Shown here in pieces: positions 6,669 to 19,501 of a DNA stretch of 64,000 nucleotides. The notes under the pieces are model-generated. The model had not been told where the DNA came from and searched no databases. It saw nothing but the letters and a program-made list of their open reading frames with translations. Position 1 is the first letter of the stretch. Every line of letters starts with the position of its first letter. Source of the stretch: Caldilineaceae bacterium (GTDB lineage: Bacteria > Chloroflexota > Anaerolineae > Caldilineales > Caldilineaceae); the NCBI GenBank assembly GCA_020433455.1, contig JAGRCP010000019.1, positions 1-64,000 on the forward strand. Reading direction: 5' to 3'. The translations under genes and the position numbers were made by a program.

Positions 6669-7487
6669 ATGTCTTATCCGGTTGACGGTATTGTCTTTGA
6701 CCTGGACGGCACCGTCTATTTGGGCAATGCCGCGCTGCCCGGCAGCGTAGACGGCATTGCCGAACTGCGCCGCCGCGGGAAGAAGACCCTTTTCGTCACG
6801 AACAAGCCCCTGGAGCCCCGGGAAGCCTATGCCGCCAAGCTGATCCGCCTGGGCATTCCCGCCGAGCCGGACGATGTGATCACCTCCGCTTACGTCCTGG
6901 GCCATCATCTGGCCCGGGTCCATCCGGAACTGCGCTACTACGTCATTGGCGAAGAAAGCCTGCGCCAGGAGCTGCGCGGCCACGGCCTTACTATTGTAGA
7001 TGAGTTGTGGGATCAGGACGAAAAAGAAGTGCTGGACGTCACGGGCATTGATGCCGTCATCGTCGCGTTTGACCGCACCCTGGATTATCGCAAGCTCAAT
7101 ACCGCGTATCAGGCTCTTTTGCAAGGCGCGTATTTTTTTGCCACCAACGCAGACAAGGCCTGCCCCATGCCCGGCGGCTCCATTCCTGACGCGGGAGCTA
7201 CCATCGCCGCGTTGGAGCAGATCACCGGTCGCACGCTGGACCTGCTGGCCGGCAAGCCCTCCGCCATCATTATGGAAGTCGCTCTGGCGCGGCTGGGCTG
7301 CCCGGCCGCGCGGGCCATGATGGTTGGCGATCGCCTGGAGACGGATATGCTCATGGGCCGGCAGGCCGGCATGCTGACGGCCGCGGTGCTTACAGGCGCA
7401 GCGACCCGCACGGAGGCGGAAGCGTTGGCGCATCCTCCTACTTTTATCCTTGATAACATCGGCGCACTCCCCTCTCTGATTGATTAG
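6669..7487 (+). CDS. HAD-superfamily IIA phosphatase, NagD/AraL-like
   Basis: A 272-residue HAD hydrolase with motif I DLDGTVYLG (nucleophile and acid Asp near residues 11 and 13), motif II FVTNK, a C2 cap and motif III/IV GKPSAIIM and GDRLETD. AraL of the B. subtilis ara operon belongs to this group and dephosphorylates sugar phosphates, perhaps to prevent toxic accumulation. It opens the operon, preceded by AGAAGGAG before the ATG. A similar housekeeping role on intermediates of the kinases downstream is likely (inference). Confidence 0.88.
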   Translation: MSYPVDGIVFDLDGTVYLGNAALPGSVDGIAELRRRGKKTLFVTNKPLEPREAYAAKLIRLGIPAEPDDVITSAYVLGHHLARVHPELRYYVIGEESLRQELRGHGLTIVDELWDQDEKEVLDVTGIDAVIVAFDRTLDYRKLNTAYQALLQGAYFFATNADKACPMPGGSIPDAGATIAALEQITGRTLDLLAGKPSAIIMEVALARLGCPAARAMMVGDRLETDMLMGRQAGMLTAAVLTGAATRTEAEALAHPPTFILDNIGALPSLID

Positions 7488-7655
7488 CCTGTTTGATTAA
7501 CCTGCAACATTCATCGCTGGAAAGAAGCCGCAAAGAAGGGAGGTCGCCCGGCAGCAGAGTCTTATTGCTTTCATGAAGTTCGATCGACCGGCGCGGCCAT
7601 ACGCGCCATAACCACTCATGCTTGAACAAGGAATCACCCAAGGAGAAGCAAGATT

Positions 7656-9101
<1,446 letters not shown>

Positions 9102-9130
9102 TCAGGTAAGTTGATTTCCTGAAGCCGGCT

Positions 9131-9178
9131 GATCCCGCAATCTTCAATCGTTCGCCTGAAATTGGAGATTGCGGGATC
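9131..9178 (+). repeat. Intercistronic hairpin between binding protein and permease
   Basis: Arms 9131-9143 and 9166-9178 (GATCCCGCAATCT) are perfect and extend inward with mismatches to about 20 pairs. No T-run follows. Such hairpins after binding-protein genes, as after malE, protect the upstream mRNA and lower expression of the membrane subunits; that role is inferred. Confidence 0.6.
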
Positions 9179-9276
9179 GGAGATTAAAGAATACGCGATT
9201 GGCGTTTGCCCAATCCGCACATCCGCCCTCACTCCGTCATCGGAACCTATCGGAATCAGAAGAAGGTTGACCGCCC

Positions 9277-10182
9277 ATGACCGAAGAAAAGCTGCAACCT
9301 CCCTTAGGCGTGCGCATCCGTCCCTGGCTCATCGCCCTGCCCGCGCTCATCGTTCTTATCGGGATTCTCTACCCCTTTCTGACCGCCATCTACTACTCCT
9401 TTACCGCCTATGCGCTCAATCGACCCGGCAGCCTGGACCAATTTGTCGGCTTCCGCAACTACGTGCGCATGTTTACGGATGACGATTTTTTGTACAGCAC
9501 CTACATCACGTTTGCCTATGCCCTGCTTAGCACGGGCGTTGAGCTGGTGCTGGGCCTGGCCGTTGCGCTGCTCCTCAACCGGGAATCGCGCTTCGCTAAA
9601 ATATTGACGCCCACCCTGATCTTCCCCATGATGATCGCCCCCGTCATCGGCACCCTGATTTGGAAGATGATGATGCAGCCCAGCGTGGGCATTCTCAACC
9701 CCATGCTCAATCTGGTCGGATTGCCCTCCCTCCAATGGGCGGCCGTACCCGAGACCGCGCTCTTCTCGGTGGTCCTGGTGGACGTGTGGATGTTTACGCC
9801 CTTTGCCGCGCTGATCCTGACGGCGGGCCTGCGTTCCTTCCCCAGCGCGCCGTTTGAAGCCGCGCGGGTGGACGGCGCGTCTTTCTGGTTTACCTTCCGT
9901 AACCTGACCCTGCCCATGCTCACCCCCTTCATTCTGATTGTGGTGGTCTTCCGGCTCATGGATTCGCTCAAGATGTTCGACATCATCTTCGCCATGACCG
10001 AAGGCGGGCCGGGCCGCACCCTCATGACCTATCAGCTCACGGCCTATCGCACCAGCTTTCAATTCCAGCGTCTGGCCCAGGGCTTGCCCTACGCGATTCT
10101 CCTTTACATCATCATCTACATTACCAGCTTCTACCTGATCAAGTTCTGGGGACGCGCCCAGCGGCGCGCCGCCGGTTACTAA
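9277..10182 (+). CDS. Sugar ABC transporter permease, MalF/UgpA-like
   Basis: A 301-residue permease with six predicted membrane helices. The first, around residues 18-42, follows a short basic N-terminus. The coupling-helix (EAA) motif is FEAARVDGASFWFTFRNLTLP near residues 195-215. It is a type I sugar importer subunit that pairs with the next gene. It lies 15 bases before the second permease, in the same operon. Confidence 0.92.
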   Translation: MTEEKLQPPLGVRIRPWLIALPALIVLIGILYPFLTAIYYSFTAYALNRPGSLDQFVGFRNYVRMFTDDDFLYSTYITFAYALLSTGVELVLGLAVALLLNRESRFAKILTPTLIFPMMIAPVIGTLIWKMMMQPSVGILNPMLNLVGLPSLQWAAVPETALFSVVLVDVWMFTPFAALILTAGLRSFPSAPFEAARVDGASFWFTFRNLTLPMLTPFILIVVVFRLMDSLKMFDIIFAMTEGGPGRTLMTYQLTAYRTSFQFQRLAQGLPYAILLYIIIYITSFYLIKFWGRAQRRAAGY

Positions 10183-10197
10183 CGAGGGCGACGGATT

Positions 10198-11061
<864 letters not shown>

Positions 11062-11067
11062 GCGAGC

Positions 11068-12192
11068 ATGGCAAGCCTCCGGCTGGAAAATCTGGTCAAA
11101 AAATACGGCGATATCACCGCCGTCGATCGCCTTTCTCTGGAGATCAACGACGGCGAATTCATGGTCATGCTCGGCCCGTCGGGCGCGGGCAAAACGACGA
11201 CCCTCAAGCTCATCGCCGGGGTGGTCACGCCCGACGCAGGCAAGGTCTACATCGGCGACCGCCTGGTCAACGCCATCGAGCCCCACAAGCGCAACGTGGC
11301 CATGGCCTTTGAAAGTTACGCCCTCTATCCACACAAAACGGTGAAGGAGAACCTGGCCTTCCCTTTGCGCGCGCCGGGGCGCAACTTCTCTGCGGCAGAG
11401 ATTGATCGTAAAGTGAACGACGTGGCCGAAATGCTTAATATCCACATGCTGCTGGATCGCCTGCCCCAGCACCTCTCCAACGGTCAGAAGCAGCGCGTGG
11501 CTCTGGGGCGGGCCATGGTGCGAGATCCGGAGATTATGTTGCTGGACGAGCCGATCTCTCATCTGGACGCCAAGCTGCGCCATCGTATGCGCACCGAATT
11601 CAAGGCGCTGGAAGCGGAGATTCATACGACGACCCTCTACGTAACCCACGACTACCTGGAGGCTCTTTCTCTGGGCGATCGGCTGGTGGTGCTGAATGAA
11701 GGGGTAATCCAGCAGATCGGCCTGCCTGACGACGTCTTCCTGCGGCCTGCCAATCTCTTCGTCTCCAGGCTTTTGGGCCATCCCCAGATAAACCTCATTG
11801 AATGTACCGCCCAGCGCAGCGATGAGGGGCTACAACTGCTCAGCACCGACGGGGCCGTACGCGTTGACGCGCCCTCCCATCTCCGCACCGCGCTCGACGC
11901 CCACGCCTCAGAGCGCCTGGTTATGGGCATTCGCCCCCAGGATATGGCAATCGTCTCCAGCGATGAGGCGAATACGCCCAACACCTGCCAGGGCAGCGTC
12001 TACGTCTATGAGCGGCTGGGTACCAAGGGCGTCCTCAGCGCAAAGGTAGGCAAGCGCCAGATGGAGATCATTACGCCCATCGAAATGAGCTTTGACTTCG
12101 ATGAGGCGGTCGCCATCCGCATCAAAACGGACAAGCTTATGCTCTTTGATCGGGATACGGAGCAGAATCTGCTGCAGGCGGAGGAAATATAA
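11068..12192 (+). CDS. Sugar ABC transporter ATP-binding protein 1 (MalK/UgpC-like, Q-loop Glu)
   Basis: A 374-residue CUT1 ATPase: nucleotide-binding domain about 1-235, then a C-terminal OB-fold regulatory domain. Walker A is GPSGAGKT (36-43), signature LSNGQ (136-140), Walker B LLLDE (D160, E161) and switch His H194. Two positions are unusual: the Q-loop residue is Glu (E82, in FESYALYP), where MalK has Gln, and the signature has Asn in place of its first Gly. The next gene encodes a second, different ATPase, so the transporter probably has an ATPase heterodimer, as in GlpS/GlpT of the rhizobial glycerol importer. Confidence 0.92.
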   Translation: MASLRLENLVKKYGDITAVDRLSLEINDGEFMVMLGPSGAGKTTTLKLIAGVVTPDAGKVYIGDRLVNAIEPHKRNVAMAFESYALYPHKTVKENLAFPLRAPGRNFSAAEIDRKVNDVAEMLNIHMLLDRLPQHLSNGQKQRVALGRAMVRDPEIMLLDEPISHLDAKLRHRMRTEFKALEAEIHTTTLYVTHDYLEALSLGDRLVVLNEGVIQQIGLPDDVFLRPANLFVSRLLGHPQINLIECTAQRSDEGLQLLSTDGAVRVDAPSHLRTALDAHASERLVMGIRPQDMAIVSSDEANTPNTCQGSVYVYERLGTKGVLSAKVGKRQMEIITPIEMSFDFDEAVAIRIKTDKLMLFDRDTEQNLLQAEEI

Positions 12193-12193
12193 G

Positions 12194-13297
12194 ATGGCTG
12201 AACTACGCTTGGAACACATCTACAAAACGTACAAAGGCAACGTCGAAGCGGTCAAGGACCTGAACCTGACCGTCCGTGACGGGGAGTTCCTGGCCCTTTT
12301 GGGGCCGTCAGGTTGCGGTAAAACCTCAACCCTGCGCATGATTGTCGGGCTGGAAGAGATTACCAGGGGCGAGATGTACATCGGCGATCGCCTGGTCAAC
12401 AGGCTGGAACCCAACGCCCGCAACGTGGCCTTGGCCTTCGAGACCTACGCCCTCTATCCGCCCCTGAGCGTGCGGGATAATATCGCCTTCTGCCTGCGGG
12501 CCCGTTCCGTCGCGCCGGATGAGATTAAGCGCCGGGTTGATGCCGTGGCCGATATGCTGGATATCACCGACATTCTGGACCGCAAGCCGGCCGAGTTGGG
12601 CGGCGGCCAGAAGCAGCGCATTTCCCTGGCCCGGGCTCTCGTGCGCAATCCCGACGTCTTCCTCATGGATGAACCCCTTTCCCATCTGGATGCGGCCCAG
12701 CGCGCCCATATGCGCGTCGAACTCAAGCGCCTCCACGCCGAAACGGGCCGCACGACCATTCTGGTCACCCACGACCAGCTTGAGGCCGTGGCCATGGCCG
12801 AACGGATTGCGGTGATGAACTTCGGCGTGCTCCAGCAGGTAGGTTCCTTCAACGAAGTCTATAACCATCCCGTTAACGAATTTGTGGCCGGCTTCATCGG
12901 CGAGCCGCCTATGAACTTCCTGGCCTGCCGTCCCGCCGCCCAAAACGGCGCGACCGCGCTCACGGCCGCGGACGGGAGCTTTCACCTTTCCTTACCCTCG
13001 GCCCTACAAGAGCGGGTCAACGCCCATAACGGCCAAAACCTGCATCTGGGCGTGCGCCCCACCGACCTGCACCTGGGCGACGGCGCGGCGGATGATGATC
13101 TGCTTACCCTTCACGCCACGGTAGATACCTACGAATCCCTGGGCGAAGAAGGCCAGTTGGCCGCAAACGTCGGGGAGAGTCCCGTACTTCTGATCACCGA
13201 GCCTTTCCTGAATCTGGCCCGGGGCGAAAAGGTCGATCTCCAAATGAGCACCAACCGCATCCATCTCTTTGACGCGGATACAACCAACGCCATCTGA
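12194..13297 (+). CDS. Sugar ABC transporter ATP-binding protein 2 (MalK/UgpC-like, Q-loop Glu)
   Basis: A 367-residue CUT1 ATPase related to its upstream neighbour. Walker A is GPSGCGKT (37-44), Walker B FLMDE (D159, E160) and switch His H193. The Q-loop position is again Glu (E83, in FETYALYP). The signature reads LGGGQ (135-139), so the Ser that contacts the ATP gamma-phosphate is missing. The frame is open upstream, but ATG 12194 follows GGAGGAAATATAAG, one base past the previous stop, and gives the family N-terminus. With different signature defects in the two subunits, the two ATP sites should be unequal (inference). Confidence 0.92.
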   Translation: MAELRLEHIYKTYKGNVEAVKDLNLTVRDGEFLALLGPSGCGKTSTLRMIVGLEEITRGEMYIGDRLVNRLEPNARNVALAFETYALYPPLSVRDNIAFCLRARSVAPDEIKRRVDAVADMLDITDILDRKPAELGGGQKQRISLARALVRNPDVFLMDEPLSHLDAAQRAHMRVELKRLHAETGRTTILVTHDQLEAVAMAERIAVMNFGVLQQVGSFNEVYNHPVNEFVAGFIGEPPMNFLACRPAAQNGATALTAADGSFHLSLPSALQERVNAHNGQNLHLGVRPTDLHLGDGAADDDLLTLHATVDTYESLGEEGQLAANVGESPVLLITEPFLNLARGEKVDLQMSTNRIHLFDADTTNAI

Positions 13298-13305
13298 GCC
13301 GATCC

Positions 13306-14841
13306 ATGAGCGCACTGTTGCTGGGTATCGACATCGGTACGTCGGTCATCAAGAGCATCCTCTTTGACGCCGCGGGCCGTGAAATCGCCGGCGCCGCGCG
13401 GGAAAACGTTCTGCTCCACCCGACCCCCGGCATGGTAGAGCAGAATATGACCGCGGTCTGGCAGGCCGCAGCGGAAACCGCGGCCGAAGCCGTAGTGAGC
13501 GTGCAGGGGGCGGCTGACGAAATTGTCGCCATCGGCGTCACGGGTCAGGGTGACGGCACGTGGCTGGTCGATGCAGAGGGAAGGCCTGTGGGCAATGCCG
13601 TCACCTGGCTGGACGGCCGCGTGGGTGACCTGGTCGAAGCGGCCCATACCGGCGGACTGAGCGAACAGGTCTTCGCCCGCACCGGCACCGCGCTCAACAC
13701 CAGCAACCAGGCCCTGCAACTCCGCTGGCTGGCCGAGCATGAGCCGGACCGTCTGGCCCGCGCCCATGCCGCGCTCCGGGCCAAGGACTGGATATTTCTC
13801 TGCCTGACCGGGCAATTTGCCACCGATGAATCTGACGCCTCACATACCTATTTTTCTGTGGGTACGCGCGCGCTCGATCCCGGGTTGCCCGGGCTGTTGG
13901 GCATTGGGCAATGGACGCGTCTCCTGCCGCCCATACGCGCTGCGACGGAAAACCAGGCTCCCTTGCTGGCTGATGCGGCCCTCCGGTTGGGGCTGCGCCC
14001 CGGCACGCCCGTTGTAGCCGGTCCTTTTGACGTGGCCGCGGCCGACCTGGGCAGCGGCGTCTTCCAGCCCGGCGACGCCTGTACCATTCTGGGCACCGCG
14101 GCCATCCATCAGATGGTCATGGATCGCCCTGCAGATGAACCGAAAAATACGGGCTACACCATGTGCCACGCGCCCGCGGATCGCCTGGTGCGCCTCCTGC
14201 CCAGCATGACCGGAGCCCTCAACCTGGAGTGGTTTTTGCGCCAGTTTTACGCCCTTGAAGCCGCGCGGCCGGGCGTCAACATCTACGCGTTGGCAGAAGA
14301 AGAAGCCGCGACTGTTCCGCCCGGCTGCGACGGCGTCCTCTATCACCCATACATCAATCCGGCCGGCGAGCGCTCGCCTTTTGTACGCCCCGATGCCCGC
14401 GCCCAGTTTAGCGGCATGACCGTGGAGCACAGCCGGGCCGCGCTTCTGCGCAGCGTCTATGAAGGCGTGCTTTTTTCGGCCATGGACTGCTACGAGTATC
14501 TCAATCAGCCCATACGCGCGCTTACCCTCGCTGGCGGCGGCGCGCGCAGCGATCTCTGGTGTCAGATGTTTGCCGACGGTTTGGACTGTCCGGTTACTGT
14601 GGTTGCGGGCAACGAGCAGGGTGCGCTGGGCGCGGCCATCAATGCCGGCGTGGCCGTGGGGCTCTACGCCTCCTATGCTGATGCCATCGACGCCTGCGTA
14701 CGGTCGAACCGCACCTACGCGCCCAATCCCCAGGTTGGGGCCGTCTATCGATCGCTTTTACCCCTTTATCGTCAGACTTACAAAGCCCTCTTTCCGGTCT
14801 GGCAAGCACGCGCCCAATGGCGCCGGGAGCACTCTCTATGA
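13306..14841 (+). CDS. FGGY-family carbohydrate kinase 1 (erythritol/xylulose kinase-like)
   Basis: A 511-residue kinase of the FGGY family (hexokinase/actin fold). The N-terminal phosphate loop is GIDIGTSVIKSILFD. The segment TGQGDGTWLVD resembles what I recall of erythritol kinases (EryA), though I cannot test this by alignment. The second domain has LAGGGARSDLWCQM, the ATP-binding region. It phosphorylates an imported polyol or ketose, which would trap it and make the SorC ligand. It begins 8 bases after ATPase 2 and ends in an ATGA overlap with the dehydrogenase gene. Substrate is not determined. Confidence 0.88.
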   Translation: MSALLLGIDIGTSVIKSILFDAAGREIAGAARENVLLHPTPGMVEQNMTAVWQAAAETAAEAVVSVQGAADEIVAIGVTGQGDGTWLVDAEGRPVGNAVTWLDGRVGDLVEAAHTGGLSEQVFARTGTALNTSNQALQLRWLAEHEPDRLARAHAALRAKDWIFLCLTGQFATDESDASHTYFSVGTRALDPGLPGLLGIGQWTRLLPPIRAATENQAPLLADAALRLGLRPGTPVVAGPFDVAAADLGSGVFQPGDACTILGTAAIHQMVMDRPADEPKNTGYTMCHAPADRLVRLLPSMTGALNLEWFLRQFYALEAARPGVNIYALAEEEAATVPPGCDGVLYHPYINPAGERSPFVRPDARAQFSGMTVEHSRAALLRSVYEGVLFSAMDCYEYLNQPIRALTLAGGGARSDLWCQMFADGLDCPVTVVAGNEQGALGAAINAGVAVGLYASYADAIDACVRSNRTYAPNPQVGAVYRSLLPLYRQTYKALFPVWQARAQWRREHSL

Positions 14842-15908
14842 CCCACTCGTCCACGCGGCGGATACGCGCCGCGGTCATCGGCGATCTGTTCGTCGGTTCG
14901 GAACTCATTGTCCGCGCGCTGGCGCGTCGGCTCGCGCCTGAAGGCATTGTGTTGGATGCGGATACCGCGCAGGTAAATTGGCCCGACGCGCCGCTCATTG
15001 CTAATGACGAGGTGAGCGAATTTGCCGGCGATCCGGCCGCGGTGGCTGCGTTGGCCCAAAAGGCCGCAATCCTCGTCACCCACGTCGCGCCGGTGACCGA
15101 AGCCGTGCTGGATGCGGCGCCTGACCTGCGCCTCATTGCCTGCTGTCGGGGCGGGCCGGTCAACATTAATGTGGACGCGGCCACGCGTCGGGGCATTCCC
15201 GTTATTAACGCGCCGGCGCGTAACTCTCAGGCCGTCATCGAATTTACGCTGGGCCTGATCCTGGCCGAGAGTCGGGGCATCGGCCGCGCGCACGCCGCGT
15301 TGAGTCAGGGAATATGGGAGGGCGACCTCTATCGCTATGACCGGGCCGGCCGGGAAGTTCAGGGACAGGTTGTCGGTCTCGTGGGCCTGGGTGCGATTGC
15401 CCAGGGGATGATTCCCTACCTTCAGCCTTTCGGCGTGACGATTCTGGCCTACGATCCCTTCGTTTCCGCTGAACGCATGGCCGGGATGGGCGTGGAAAAG
15501 GCGGAACTGAACGATCTGCTGGCCCGTTCCGACATTGTGAGCCTCCACGCGCGGGTAACGCCTGAAACCCGGGGCATGATGGGGGCGGAGCAGTTTGCGC
15601 GCATGAAGCCGGGCGCAATATTCATCAACACGGCCCGCGGGCCCCTGGTCGATTATGACGCGCTATACGTAGCCCTGGATGGGGGACATCTGGGGGGCGC
15701 GGGACTGGATACTTTTGCCCAGGAGCCGCCGCCGTCCGACTGGCCTCTCCTGCGTCTGCCCAACGTCACCTTGACGCCGCATATCGCCGGCGCTTCCCGG
15801 GAATCGGCGCAACAAGGCGCTGACCTGGTGGCAATCGATGCGGCCAATTTTTTTGCCGGGCGTCCTCTGGTCAATCAGATCAACCGCATCGCGCTGGAGG
15901 AGAAATGA
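14838..15908 (+). CDS. D-isomer-specific 2-hydroxyacid dehydrogenase, SerA-like
   Basis: A 356-residue NAD-dependent dehydrogenase. The Rossmann motif is GLVGLGAIAQG. The catalytic triad is visible: Arg in NTARGPLVD, Glu in TFAQEPPP and His in TPHIAGAS. No ACT or regulatory domain follows, unlike long SerA. ATG 14838 overlaps the kinase stop (ATGA) and follows GGGAG, so it is preferred over ATG 14817. Its place between two sugar kinases, with tight overlaps on both sides, suggests it oxidises or reduces a sugar-derived 2-hydroxy acid of this pathway rather than 3-phosphoglycerate. Confidence 0.88.
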   Translation: MTHSSTRRIRAAVIGDLFVGSELIVRALARRLAPEGIVLDADTAQVNWPDAPLIANDEVSEFAGDPAAVAALAQKAAILVTHVAPVTEAVLDAAPDLRLIACCRGGPVNINVDAATRRGIPVINAPARNSQAVIEFTLGLILAESRGIGRAHAALSQGIWEGDLYRYDRAGREVQGQVVGLVGLGAIAQGMIPYLQPFGVTILAYDPFVSAERMAGMGVEKAELNDLLARSDIVSLHARVTPETRGMMGAEQFARMKPGAIFINTARGPLVDYDALYVALDGGHLGGAGLDTFAQEPPPSDWPLLRLPNVTLTPHIAGASRESAQQGADLVAIDAANFFAGRPLVNQINRIALEEK

Positions 15909-17446
15909 GCAAGCCCATGGCCGGAGACGAATTGTTGCTGGGTATCGATATCGGCACCACCAGCGTCAAGGCCACGCTGGTTACGCTTGCCGGCGCGGTC
16001 TGCGCTGAGGCGGCTCAGGAATACCCCACTGCGTTTCCCCGTCCGAATTGGGCCGAACAGGATCCCGAAGATTGGTGGCGGGCGACCTGCGCCGTACTCC
16101 AACAGGTGTGCGCCGCCGCAGGCGATCCGGCGCGCGTCGCTGCCCTCTCCGTGAGCTGCCAGGGGCCTTCCTTGCTGCCCATGGACGCGGCAGGCCGTCC
16201 CCTGAGTTCCGCCCAGATCTGGATGGATCGTCGCTCCACCCGGGAATGCGAATCCCTGCGCGGAACGGTGGGAGATGCTCTCTTTGCCGGCATTAACGGC
16301 GGCCGCATCGATCCCTACTACATGGCGCCTAAGCTTTACTGGCTCCGCAAGCATGAGCCGGACGTGTACGCACGCGCCTACACTTTTCTGCAAGCGAACG
16401 GCTACATCGTCCACAAGCTCTGTCGCGTATTTACCCTGGATCGCTCCATCGCTCCGCTTACCCTGCTTTACGACGCCCGGACGGAAGAATGGTCCGATGT
16501 CCTGATCGAGGCGTGCGGCGCGGACCGGACCAAGTTGCCGCCCCTGTACGATTCGGGTGAGATCGTCGGTCGCGTCACGCCGGAGGCCGCGGCTGTTACC
16601 GGCCTGGCAACAGGCACGCCCGTGCTGGCCGGTCTGTGCGACGGCCCGGCCGCGGCTCTGGAAGCGGGCCTCCTGGAGGCGGGCGATGCCGCGGAAATGA
16701 CCGGCCAATCCACGGTGCTTCTGATTTGCAGCGATCGACCCTATTTGGACGACAGGCTAATTCCCTTGGGCCATCCCCTGCCCGACCGTCATGTGACCGC
16801 CGGCGCCCAAGTCGCCTCGGGCGGCGCGCTGCGCTGGTTCCGGGATGAGTTGGGCGAACCGGAACGTCGGCAAGCCGAGGCAACGGGTGATGACGCTTAC
16901 GCACTCCTTTCTCTTCTGGCGCAAAGCAGCCCGCCGGGCGCCAACAGTCTCCTCTTTTTGCCCTACCTGTACGGCGAGCGCTCGCCCATTTGGGACAGTG
17001 ATGCGCGGGGCGTCTTCTTCGGCCTCTCTCTGTCCACGCATAAGGCGGACATGGTGCGGGCCGTCATGGAGGGTGCGGCTTATGGCCTGCGGCACAACGT
17101 GGAAGCAGCGGAGGAAGCGGGCTTTCCCTTGCGGGAGTTGGTCACCGTCGGCGGTGGGGCCAAGAGTCCGCTCTGGAATCAGATCAAGGCCGATGTGCTC
17201 CAGCGACCGGTGCGTGTCCCGGACGTCACCGGCGGAGCCGTCATCGGCGATGCTATGCTGGCCGCCGCAAGCGTGGGCCTTTACCCGACGCTCACGGATG
17301 CGGTCACGGGCATGATGGGGCCGAGCCGCGTCTTTCAACCCCGCCCGGAACTTGCCCAGCGCTATGACGCGCTCTACACTCTGTATGTAAGCCTTTACCC
17401 GCGCCTGCGCGAGGCGTTCCGGGAACTGGCGCTAACGAATTTTTAA
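15905..17446 (+). CDS. FGGY-family carbohydrate kinase 2 (xylulokinase-like)
   Basis: A 513-residue FGGY kinase, clearly different from kinase 1. Motifs: GIDIGTTSVKATLV at the N-terminus, WMDRRSTRE, LPYLYGERSPIWD and TVGGGAKSPLWNQIKADV in the ATP-binding lobe. The last two are typical of xylulose-type kinases. It overlaps the dehydrogenase stop by 4 bases. Two FGGY kinases in one operon imply either two related substrates or two phosphorylation steps. A hairpin and a 125-base gap follow before the aldolase gene. Confidence 0.9.
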   Translation: MSKPMAGDELLLGIDIGTTSVKATLVTLAGAVCAEAAQEYPTAFPRPNWAEQDPEDWWRATCAVLQQVCAAAGDPARVAALSVSCQGPSLLPMDAAGRPLSSAQIWMDRRSTRECESLRGTVGDALFAGINGGRIDPYYMAPKLYWLRKHEPDVYARAYTFLQANGYIVHKLCRVFTLDRSIAPLTLLYDARTEEWSDVLIEACGADRTKLPPLYDSGEIVGRVTPEAAAVTGLATGTPVLAGLCDGPAAALEAGLLEAGDAAEMTGQSTVLLICSDRPYLDDRLIPLGHPLPDRHVTAGAQVASGGALRWFRDELGEPERRQAEATGDDAYALLSLLAQSSPPGANSLLFLPYLYGERSPIWDSDARGVFFGLSLSTHKADMVRAVMEGAAYGLRHNVEAAEEAGFPLRELVTVGGGAKSPLWNQIKADVLQRPVRVPDVTGGAVIGDAMLAAASVGLYPTLTDAVTGMMGPSRVFQPRPELAQRYDALYTLYVSLYPRLREAFRELALTNF

Positions 17447-17473
17447 CGGCTCTTTGGGAATTCACCGGGGGCC

Positions 17474-17535
17474 GCTTTTTGAAGCATAACGCGTGATGCG
17501 CGCAGGTACGCACCGTCACGCATCACGCGTCATTT
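17474..17535. repeat. Palindromic repeat copy between kinase 2 and aldolase genes
   Basis: Arms 17489-17500 and 17519-17530 (ACGCGTGATGCG and its complement) are perfect, with further imperfect pairing inside and a short T-run after. The preceding CCGCTTTTTGAA matches the flank of the 27648-27693 palindrome in reverse. It is therefore a copy of that family inserted in the operon, possibly a partial terminator or processing site. Confidence 0.6.
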
Positions 17536-17571
17536 TTATTCCTAGACTCACCCAGCGACAGGAAAGTCAAC

Positions 17572-18222
17572 ATGGCTGAATCTGAAGGCATCGTCAAATA
17601 TGTAACTGATTACACGTCCGCCGCGGCCTTGTCGGCCGAGGAGATTGCCGAACTCAACGCCTGGCGTCGCATCCTCTATCTGGCTCAGCTTGTGGGCCAA
17701 AGCCCCGAACGTTACATGGGCTACGGCTTCGGCAATGTAAGTCGTCGGCTGGAGCCGGGCCCCGCGCCCGTCACCCAACGCAGTTTTGTCATCACCGGCA
17801 CCCAGACGGGCAATCTTACGCATCTGGATCCGGATGCCTACACCATGGTGATGGAATGTTATCCGGCGGAAAATCGTCTGGTCGCCCAAGGGCCGGTCAA
17901 GCCGTCGTCGGAATCCCTCACCCATGGCGCGGTTTACGACCAGGACCCGGAGATCATGTGGGTCTTTCACGCTCATTCGCCCGAGATTTGGCGCAACGCT
18001 GATGCGCTGGAAATTCCCGTCACCGCGGCGGATGTGCCCTACGGTTCGCCGGAAATGGCAGCGGAGGTCGATCGACTCTTCCGGGAAACGCCGCTGTTGG
18101 AGCGGCGGATATTCAGCATGGGCGGTCATGAGGACGGGATCGTCAGCTTCGGCCGCACGGCGGAAGAGGCGGGCGATGTTCTCCTCAACACGCTGGCCGC
18201 GGCGCTGGCATTGTCTGATTAG
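17572..18222 (+). CDS. Class II aldolase/adducin-family protein
   Basis: A 216-residue protein of the class II aldolase / L-ribulose-5-phosphate 4-epimerase family. It shows the phosphate-binding GNVS and TGTQTG, the SSESLTH segment and the metal-binding FHAHSP with a later GGHEDG. These enzymes make or break carbon-carbon bonds of phosphorylated ketoses or sugar acids through a Zn2+-stabilised enediolate. Here it probably splits or epimerises the product of the kinases. The size fits AraD or fuculose aldolase; the exact reaction cannot be read from the sequence. Confidence 0.85.
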   Translation: MAESEGIVKYVTDYTSAAALSAEEIAELNAWRRILYLAQLVGQSPERYMGYGFGNVSRRLEPGPAPVTQRSFVITGTQTGNLTHLDPDAYTMVMECYPAENRLVAQGPVKPSSESLTHGAVYDQDPEIMWVFHAHSPEIWRNADALEIPVTAADVPYGSPEMAAEVDRLFRETPLLERRIFSMGGHEDGIVSFGRTAEEAGDVLLNTLAAALALSD

Positions 18223-18253
18223 CAGAGCATGAATTAACAGAAAGGAAAACCTC

Positions 18254-19501
18254 ATGAGCGGCGAACGTCCTCTGGAGGTGACAATCGATGACCGGGCCAT
18301 TGAGCATTTGCTGGCCTTTACCGCGGAGCAGGGTATGCACGATCTGCTCATGGTTTCCGACGAAAATACCTACGCGGCTCTGGGCGCGCGGGTGGAAGCG
18401 GCCCTGAGCGAAGCCGGACGCGACCTGATTAGCGTCATCCACACTGGCGAAGAGGTGGTGGCTGATGCCCGCTACATCTTCCATACGCTGCTGGCCGCAG
18501 ACCCCAAGCCCCGCACCTATATCGCGGTCGGCTCGGGCACCGTGACCGACATTACCCGCTTTGTCAGCCATCGCACCCACTCGTCCTTCATCTCCATGCC
18601 CACCGCGCCTTCGGTGGACGGCTTTGCGTCCATCGGCGCGCCCCTCATTATTGACGGCGTCAAGGAGACGGTCATCTGCCATGCGCCCATCGCCATCTTC
18701 GCCGACATCAACACCCTGGCCAATGCGCCCCAGGCCCTCATCGCCGCGGGCTTGGGCGATATGCTGGGCAAGTACACCTCCATTGCCGACTGGCGGCTGG
18801 GCCGCCTCTTCTGGGGTGAACCGTACGACGAAGAGATTGCGCAGCGTACGTTAGCCGCGGTGCAGCTCTGTGTGGATAACGTGGACGCGATCGGCGCGGA
18901 CGAGCCGGAAGGCATCCGCAAGCTGCTGGAGGGGCTCATCGAGTCGGGCTATTGCATGCTGGACTTTGGTTCCTCCCGGCCCGCTTCGGGCGCGGAACAT
19001 CATTATTCTCACCTGTGGGAAATGAAGCTCCTGCGCGAGGGGCGTCCGGCCATTCTGCATGGGGCGAAGGTGGGCGTGGCCACGGTACTGGTGGCAGGTC
19101 TCTATGACCGGATCCGGGCCATGAGCCGGAACGAAGCCGCGGACCTGATGGAGGCGAGCGACTGGTCAAATGCGGACGTGGAAATGACCCGCATTCGCAC
19201 CGCGTACGGCGATCAGGCGGAAGATGTCATGGCCGCGCATCAGCGCTTCCTGAACCTGACGCCGGAAGAGTCTGATGCGATCAAGCGCCAAATTCTGGCG
19301 CACTGGGACGAGGTGCAGGAGATCGCAGCCCACGTCCCCCCGCCCGACGTCGTAGCCGACTACCTGCGGCGGGCCGGCGGTCCCACTACCGTGGCCGAAC
19401 TGGGTCTGTCAGACGAAGAGCAAGCCCTGGCCGAGCAGAGCGGTCATTATCTACGCGACCGGTTTACCGTGCGGAAATTGGCCCGGGCCTTGGATATCTA
19501 A
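18254..19501 (+). CDS. sn-Glycerol-1-phosphate dehydrogenase family protein, AraM-like
   Basis: A 415-residue NAD(P)/metal-dependent dehydrogenase of the G1PDH branch of the Fe-ADH fold. Visible motifs are VGSGTVTDITRF (NAD binding), MPTAPSVDGFAS, GLGDMLGKYTSIADW (metal-ligand Asp), SRPASGAEHHYSHLWEM and LHGAKVGVA (metal-ligand His). B. subtilis AraM, encoded in the ara operon beside araL, is a true G1PDH. Here the gene ends a catabolic operon that also begins with an AraL-like gene. It may reduce dihydroxyacetone phosphate released by the aldolase, or act on another polyol phosphate (inference). Confidence 0.88.
   Translation: MSGERPLEVTIDDRAIEHLLAFTAEQGMHDLLMVSDENTYAALGARVEAALSEAGRDLISVIHTGEEVVADARYIFHTLLAADPKPRTYIAVGSGTVTDITRFVSHRTHSSFISMPTAPSVDGFASIGAPLIIDGVKETVICHAPIAIFADINTLANAPQALIAAGLGDMLGKYTSIADWRLGRLFWGEPYDEEIAQRTLAAVQLCVDNVDAIGADEPEGIRKLLEGLIESGYCMLDFGSSRPASGAEHHYSHLWEMKLLREGRPAILHGAKVGVATVLVAGLYDRIRAMSRNEAADLMEASDWSNADVEMTRIRTAYGDQAEDVMAAHQRFLNLTPEESDAIKRQILAHWDEVQEIAAHVPPPDVVADYLRRAGGPTTVAELGLSDEEQALAEQSGHYLRDRFTVRKLARALDI

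Follow-up and report, generated by a model that had tools for sequence, protein, structure and literature searches.

Paired CUT1-type ATPases with Glu in the Q-loop and His in the D-loop in a Caldilineaceae bacterium, and motif evidence for one weakened ATP site

Introduction

Studies of the mechanism of CUT1 importers build on homodimeric MalK-type ATPases, for which the typical profile is a single ATPase gene with Gln in the Q-loop and SNLD in the D-loop. Such single-ATPase systems comprise MalFGK2, UgpABCE and the importers depending on MsmX, a MalK-type ATPase that is shared and interchangeable (PMC7658222). One ATP site is composed of Walker A, Walker B, Q-loop and H-loop from one nucleotide-binding domain (NBD) and of the signature from the other, and the signature Ser serves the ATP bound at the partner's Walker A (PMC7756269). 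Degenerate sites are found in exporters such as Pdr5, TAP and TM287/288. In Pdr5, the Q-loop of the deviant NBD1 carries a Glu (E244) and the canonical NBD a Gln (Q951; PMC8421411), and for Cdr1p it was reported that Glu238 in the Q-loop of the N-terminal NBD helps to coordinate Mg2+ (PMC3268037). The GlpSTPQV system of Rhizobium leguminosarum/johnstonii, encoded by a CUT1-like operon, has two different ATPase genes lying side by side. Here, we analyzed positions 1 to 64,000 of contig JAGRCP010000019.1 from a Caldilineaceae bacterium (assembly GCA_020433455.1; this whole stretch of 64,000 nucleotides is called the window), in which an operon of CUT1 layout encodes two adjacent and different CUT1/MalK-type ATPase subunits, NBD1 and NBD2, both with Glu at the position of the Q-loop Gln.

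Judged from its sequence, the system would be a CUT1-type importer driven by an ATPase pair that is uncommon and asymmetric. If this is true, sugar importers evolved asymmetric ATP hydrolysis just as exporters did, and the natural family would offer a ready mutational test of the roles of the Q-loop Gln and the D-loop Asn.

Two different ATPase subunits with Glu in the Q-loop and His in the D-loop

NBD1 (11068..12192; 374 aa; this and all features below are on the + strand) contains by translation the Walker A motif GPSGAGKTT, the Q-loop FESYALYP (F81, E82), the signature LSNGQ (residues 136-140), a Walker B ending in DEP (E161), the D-loop SHLD (164-167) and the H-loop VTHDY (H194). The corresponding motifs of NBD2 (12194..13297; 367 aa) are GPSGCGKTS, FETYALYP (F82, E83), LGGGQ (135-139), DEP (E160), SHLD (163-166) and VTHDQ (H193). 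The codons of Glu82 and Glu83 lie at 11311..11313 and 12440..12442, the signatures at 11473..11487 (NBD1) and 12596..12610 (NBD2), and the D-loops at 11557..11568 (NBD1) and 12680..12691 (NBD2). NBD2 likely starts with the ATG at 12194; a longer open reading frame (ORF) with a TTG start at 12092 would overlap NBD1. The two subunits are 44% identical. The Q-loops and signatures had been noted in a preliminary description of the window and are confirmed here by translation and in orthologous loci: FESYALYP/LSNGQ together with FETYALYP/LGGGQ are kept in three independent orthologous loci (L148, L156, L186), so that the motifs reflect neither chance nor an assembly error. Absent from that description was the D-loop His, which is present in both subunits where Gln-type CUT1 ATPases have Asn, their D-loop mostly reading SNLD. 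The Walker B Glu is present in both window subunits, and DE is retained in essentially all pairs of the family described below. In alphaproteobacterial and SAR324 pairs of the Glu type (L107, L130, L157), ILDEV replaces LxDEP as the Walker B of NBD2.

With single-ATPase CUT1 systems the window operon shares the ATPase fold, the MalK-type OB/TOBE domain, two permeases with EAA loops and a binding protein of the SBP_bac_1 type. It differs in having two distinct, adjacent ATPase genes instead of one, Glu and SHLD in both subunits instead of Gln and SNLD, and unequal signatures. An adjacent partner, Glu in both Q-loops and His in both D-loops are the features that mark the Glu/His family of paired ATPases, and the window pair has all of them. 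We consider it likely that the locus encodes one CUT1-type importer of this family with an NBD1-NBD2 heterodimer, in which the site formed by the NBD1 Walker A and the NBD2 signature is weakened and the opposite site is canonical.

Motif decay follows a fixed polarity

It had been proposed that only NBD1 keeps the Ser touching the γ-phosphate of ATP. The Ser is indeed found in the LSNGQ of NBD1 only, but it acts on the ATP at the partner's Walker A, so that the Gly of NBD2 affects the site containing the NBD1 Walker A. The polarity of motif changes was counted in 30 non-redundant pairs of the Glu type. The H-loop His is lost in nine NBD1 and in no NBD2 subunits (p=0.002, pairs taken as independent; at least 5 changes on the tree), and the signature departs from xSxGQ in none of the NBD1 and 13 of the NBD2 subunits (p=5e-5, likewise; at least 11 changes on the tree, or at least 8 if LSGGE is counted as canonical). 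Moreover, the NBD1 Walker A is variable (GRPGAGKST, GSPGAGKSS, GPAGAGKTT and others), and that of NBD2 always reads GPSGCGK[ST][ST]. As H-loop and Walker A of NBD1 share one site with the signature of NBD2, the changes in the family are confined to one composite site, which decays, and the opposite site stays canonical. At the level of motifs, this supports the earlier suggestion that the two ATP sites are unequal. In the window, the signature Gly of LGGGQ is the only departing residue that differs between the sites; it lies in the composite site that decays in the family and is kept in close orthologues. Since both subunits carry the Q-loop Glu, this residue is not the source of the asymmetry, which resides in signature, H-loop and Walker A. 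The cores of the ATPases are conserved to different degrees in three orthologues, with NBD1 lower each time (NBD1 vs. NBD2: 75 vs. 89, 72 vs. 81 and 76 vs. 82% identity). The C-terminal regulatory domains of both ATPases are 43-50% identical to those of the orthologues, and the permeases there 75-87%.

The apparent one-sided decay is a pattern best known from drug-export pumps. A Glu in the Q-loop of NBD1 is shared with Pdr5 and Cdr1 (PMC7756269, PMC8421411, PMC3268037). However, Pdr5 retains Gln in its canonical site, whereas the window has Glu in both NBDs. Furthermore, the degenerate-site systems Pdr5, TAP and TM287/288 are exporters and usually lose the Walker B Glu, which the window pair keeps as DEP in both subunits.

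Alternatively, the heterodimer might hydrolyze ATP normally at both sites, with Glu/His representing a lineage-specific neutral pair of substitutions and the Ser-to-Gly exchange being tolerated. In its favor, neither window subunit has lost Walker A, the Walker B Glu or the H-loop His, and in many members of the family both signatures are close to canonical. Nevertheless, it remains unlikely, as neither the one-sided decay (9:0 and 0:13) nor the slower evolution of the NBD2 core would be expected from it. Far less probable is that NBD1 and NBD2 each form homodimers, perhaps for different permeases or conditions, an idea for which the shared, interchangeable MalK-type ATPases such as MsmX (PMC7658222) and the lack of a structure of the paired type among the matches in the Protein Data Bank (PDB) might be cited. 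Against it, the two genes lie next to each other in about ten phyla, with one permease pair per operon read, and complementary decay across the chains makes sense only for sites that are shared between chains. As an example, the H-loop His would be missing from both sites if NBD1 of L092 or L114 formed a homodimer.

Q-loop Glu is rare in the phylum and occurs mostly in paired ATPases

A DNA pattern for FE[ST]YALYP matched 4 of 301 genomes of the phylum, and reading of the loci placed every match in a pair of neighboring ATPase genes. FQxYALYP matched 81 of 101 genomes of the phylum at about 110 sites with only one tandem pair; in the same 101 genomes, FExYALYP was found in two genomes at three sites, all of them paired. 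The sole FQ tandem of this sample (G150:C239:875-1985) has two FQFYALYP sites about 1.1 kb apart. Scanning about 85,000 genomes for FE[ST]YALYP resulted in at least 123 sites in at least 116 stretches. Of the 123 sites listed, 19 were too near to an edge of the locus or contig to be judged and were left out; among the remaining matches listed, an adjacent ABC ATPase was present at 99 of 104 sites, the five single sites being L086, L119, L143, L170 and L176. One subunit of each pair was thereby selected for Glu, but its partner was not, and Glu was carried by both partners in nearly all tandem pairs (207 of 210 tandem ATPases, in partly overlapping loci). The D-loop His co-occurs with the Q-loop Glu, and Asn, Ala, Thr or Ser are found with Gln. 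Because the pairs share ancestry, the sites behind the pairing statistic do not represent independent events. The possibility that Glu and these signatures are common in ordinary homodimeric CUT1 ATPases had been named earlier as the observation that would refute the first interpretation; it was examined, and Glu turned out to be almost absent from single-ATPase systems. It is hardly credible that the Q-loop Glu represents ordinary variation found here and there among homodimeric CUT1 ATPases, as only the few apparently single FE ATPases would suggest it, whereas in the phylum sample FE is rare and always paired and FQ common and single.

Phylogenetic trees were built with the columns of Walker A, Q-loop, signature, Walker B/D-loop and H-loop masked. 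In these trees, the single Gln-type ATPases are placed apart from the Glu-type ATPases, most of which form two groups, one of NBD1 and one of NBD2 subunits. Pairs of the Glu type span about ten phyla, i.e., Chloroflexota, Actinomycetota, Pseudomonadota, Atribacterota, Spirochaetota, Verrucomicrobiota, Planctomycetota, Thermodesulfobacteriota, Bacillota and Fidelibacterota; one further contig of the Glu type was binned as an archaeon. The simplest, though unproven, reading of these trees would be that an ancestor with Glu/His was duplicated once, long ago. No description of the Glu/His family or of its asymmetry was found in the open-access literature (subscription papers lay outside the search). 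The PDB matches to the window ATPases are by name single-ATPase MalK-type or more distant ABC proteins, and the displayed alignments have Gln in the Q-loop. The paired CUT1-like ATPases marked by Glu/His form a widespread and apparently undescribed family. We slightly favor the broader view that this unnamed family of about ten phyla consists of heterodimeric sugar/polyol importers with one ATP site canonical and the other partly retired, in which Glu/His replaces the Gln/Asn of the compared Gln-type CUT1 ATPases.

GlpS/GlpT and other paired ATPases

GlpS/GlpT-type pairs had been suggested for comparison in the preliminary description. The pRL9 locus of R. johnstonii 3841 (NC_008379; glpR-glpD-S-T-P-Q-DUF2160-V-glpK) is called glpSTPQV here, as its gene order and neighbors match PMC7912956. 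Both of its ATPases keep Gln in the Q-loop (GlpS YQQFINYP; GlpT FQFPVIYD), so the comparison does not hold for the Glu, and on the basis of this authentic locus GlpS/GlpT was rejected as parent family. In GlpS the H-loop reads ATTEP, without the His, and the signature of GlpT is LTADQ (L203:20753-22909). Both changes fall into one composite site, so that one ATP site of the R. johnstonii glycerol importer likewise appears degenerate, with the same polarity as in the Glu/His family. It differs from the window in its D-loops (LANLD and LTVID), its long binding protein, its DUF2160 protein and its glpD/glpK neighborhood, in place of which the window has FGGY kinases, a hydroxyacid dehydrogenase, an aldolase and an iron-containing alcohol dehydrogenase (Fe-ADH). 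In the tree, GlpS and GlpT are outside the Glu-type group, on long branches that leave their exact placement unsure.

A further type of adjacent, different CUT1-type ATPases occurs in rhizobia, often near DhaK, and also in Burkholderiaceae (L196, L198, L200, L201, L202) and in the Chloroflexota loci L056 and L060; a DhaK neighbor was seen for three of the five rhizobial and burkholderial loci. These pairs are Gln/Gln or Glu/Gln, with FQLFALYP and FQQYSLYP (FEQYSLYP in L056/L060) as Q-loops and GTLD/GALD and SSLD/SNLD as D-loops. The best matches to the window ATPases on rhizobial plasmids were considered as relatives and rejected; those examined are ordinary single FQ ATPases, except for the Gln/Gln pair L196. 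In the rhizobial plasmid loci L196, L198, L199 and L200, an ORF of about 65 residues lies between permease 2 and the first ATPase, and three of these four adjoin dihydroxyacetone kinase genes. By their motifs, the paired CUT1-like ATPases are of at least three kinds, one of which is marked by Glu/Glu and His/His. Whether Q-loop Glu tracks with two-ATPase importers had been asked earlier; it largely does so at the FE sites, paired as described above, but not in general: because GlpS/GlpT and the DhaK-linked rhizobial/burkholderial pairs are Gln/Gln, the Glu marks one pair family and not all two-ATPase importers.

Proposed mechanism and its weighing

NBD1 and NBD2 would act as different ATPase subunits of one importer, together with the binding protein and the two permeases, most likely as a heterodimer. 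If the heterodimer forms, the LSNGQ of NBD1 completes the site with Walker A and H-loop of NBD2, which is predicted to be canonical and fast and to account for most of the turnover. The site of Walker A, Walker B and H-loop of NBD1 with the LGGGQ of NBD2 would be under weaker constraint, is often degenerate in the family, and is expected to bind ATP and to hydrolyze it more slowly. Since this weak site lacks only the signature Ser in the window, it is predicted to be slow, although it may retain some activity. Coordination of Mg2+ is most likely preserved with Glu in the Q-loop, for which the N-terminal NBD of Cdr1p offers a precedent (PMC3268037), and together with the D-loop His the Glu would alter the charge near the γ-phosphate in both sites; a Glu(Q-loop)-His(D-loop) relation is proposed as a hypothesis.

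Several observations weigh against this model. Gene adjacency is not a proof of a heterodimer, the association with pairing is largely shared ancestry, and the p-values for the polarity (0.002, 5e-5) take related pairs as independent. In the trees, support of the deep nodes is moderate: in the careful tree, the NBD2 group of 33 rows has a support of 84/93 and the NBD2 of L192 is placed on the side of the Gln-type ATPases, and resolution on the NBD1 side is poor. Among the single-looking FE sites, at least three (L143, L170 and L176) have no D-loop His, and L086 and L119 have it yet show no partner nearby. Finally, the catalytic residues of the window are canonical in both subunits save one signature Ser, the Q-loop Glu aside, and the asymmetry in the window itself may be small.

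The operon and its genes

The operon spans 6669-19501. The genes follow in the order solute-binding protein, permease 1, permease 2, NBD1, NBD2, FGGY kinase, hydroxyacid dehydrogenase, FGGY kinase, aldolase and Fe-ADH. The lipoprotein-like SBP_bac_1 protein (7656..9101) is 76-82% identical in three orthologous operons, and the two different permeases are UgpA/MalF-like with the coupling loop EAARVDGA (9277..10182) and MalG-like with EQAAMIDGY (10198..11061), completing the CUT1 layout. The Tyr after DG in the coupling loop of permease 2 is common in Glu-type systems, but a link to the Glu type was dropped, because the Gln-type sample is too small and one control has this Tyr too. Pfam ABC_tran and OB_MalK score above cut-off in NBD1 and NBD2, TOBE_2 in NBD2 only. 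The window ATPases reach 361 and 393 bits with the NCBIfam UgpC subfamily model, below its cut-off of 432 bits, and are therefore not named UgpC here. Such systems are likely labeled UgpC or generic ATP-binding protein, and the Glu/His signature could serve as a simple annotation marker.

Downstream of NBD2, FGGY carbohydrate kinase 1 (13306..14841), a D-2-hydroxyacid dehydrogenase (14817..15908), FGGY carbohydrate kinase 2 (15905..17446), a class II aldolase/adducin-domain protein (17572..18222) and a glycerol-1-phosphate-dehydrogenase-like (G1PDH-like) Fe-ADH (18254..19501) are encoded. Both FGGY kinases fall short of the GlpK cut-offs. The G1PDH-like gene had raised the idea of archaeal lipids, for which no support was found; the paper on a G1P transporter (PMC12718374) deals with other systems. 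The part from the HAD gene to the NBD genes is kept in L080, L148 and L186, and L156 retains the permeases through NBD2, one FGGY kinase and a homologue of the Fe-ADH.
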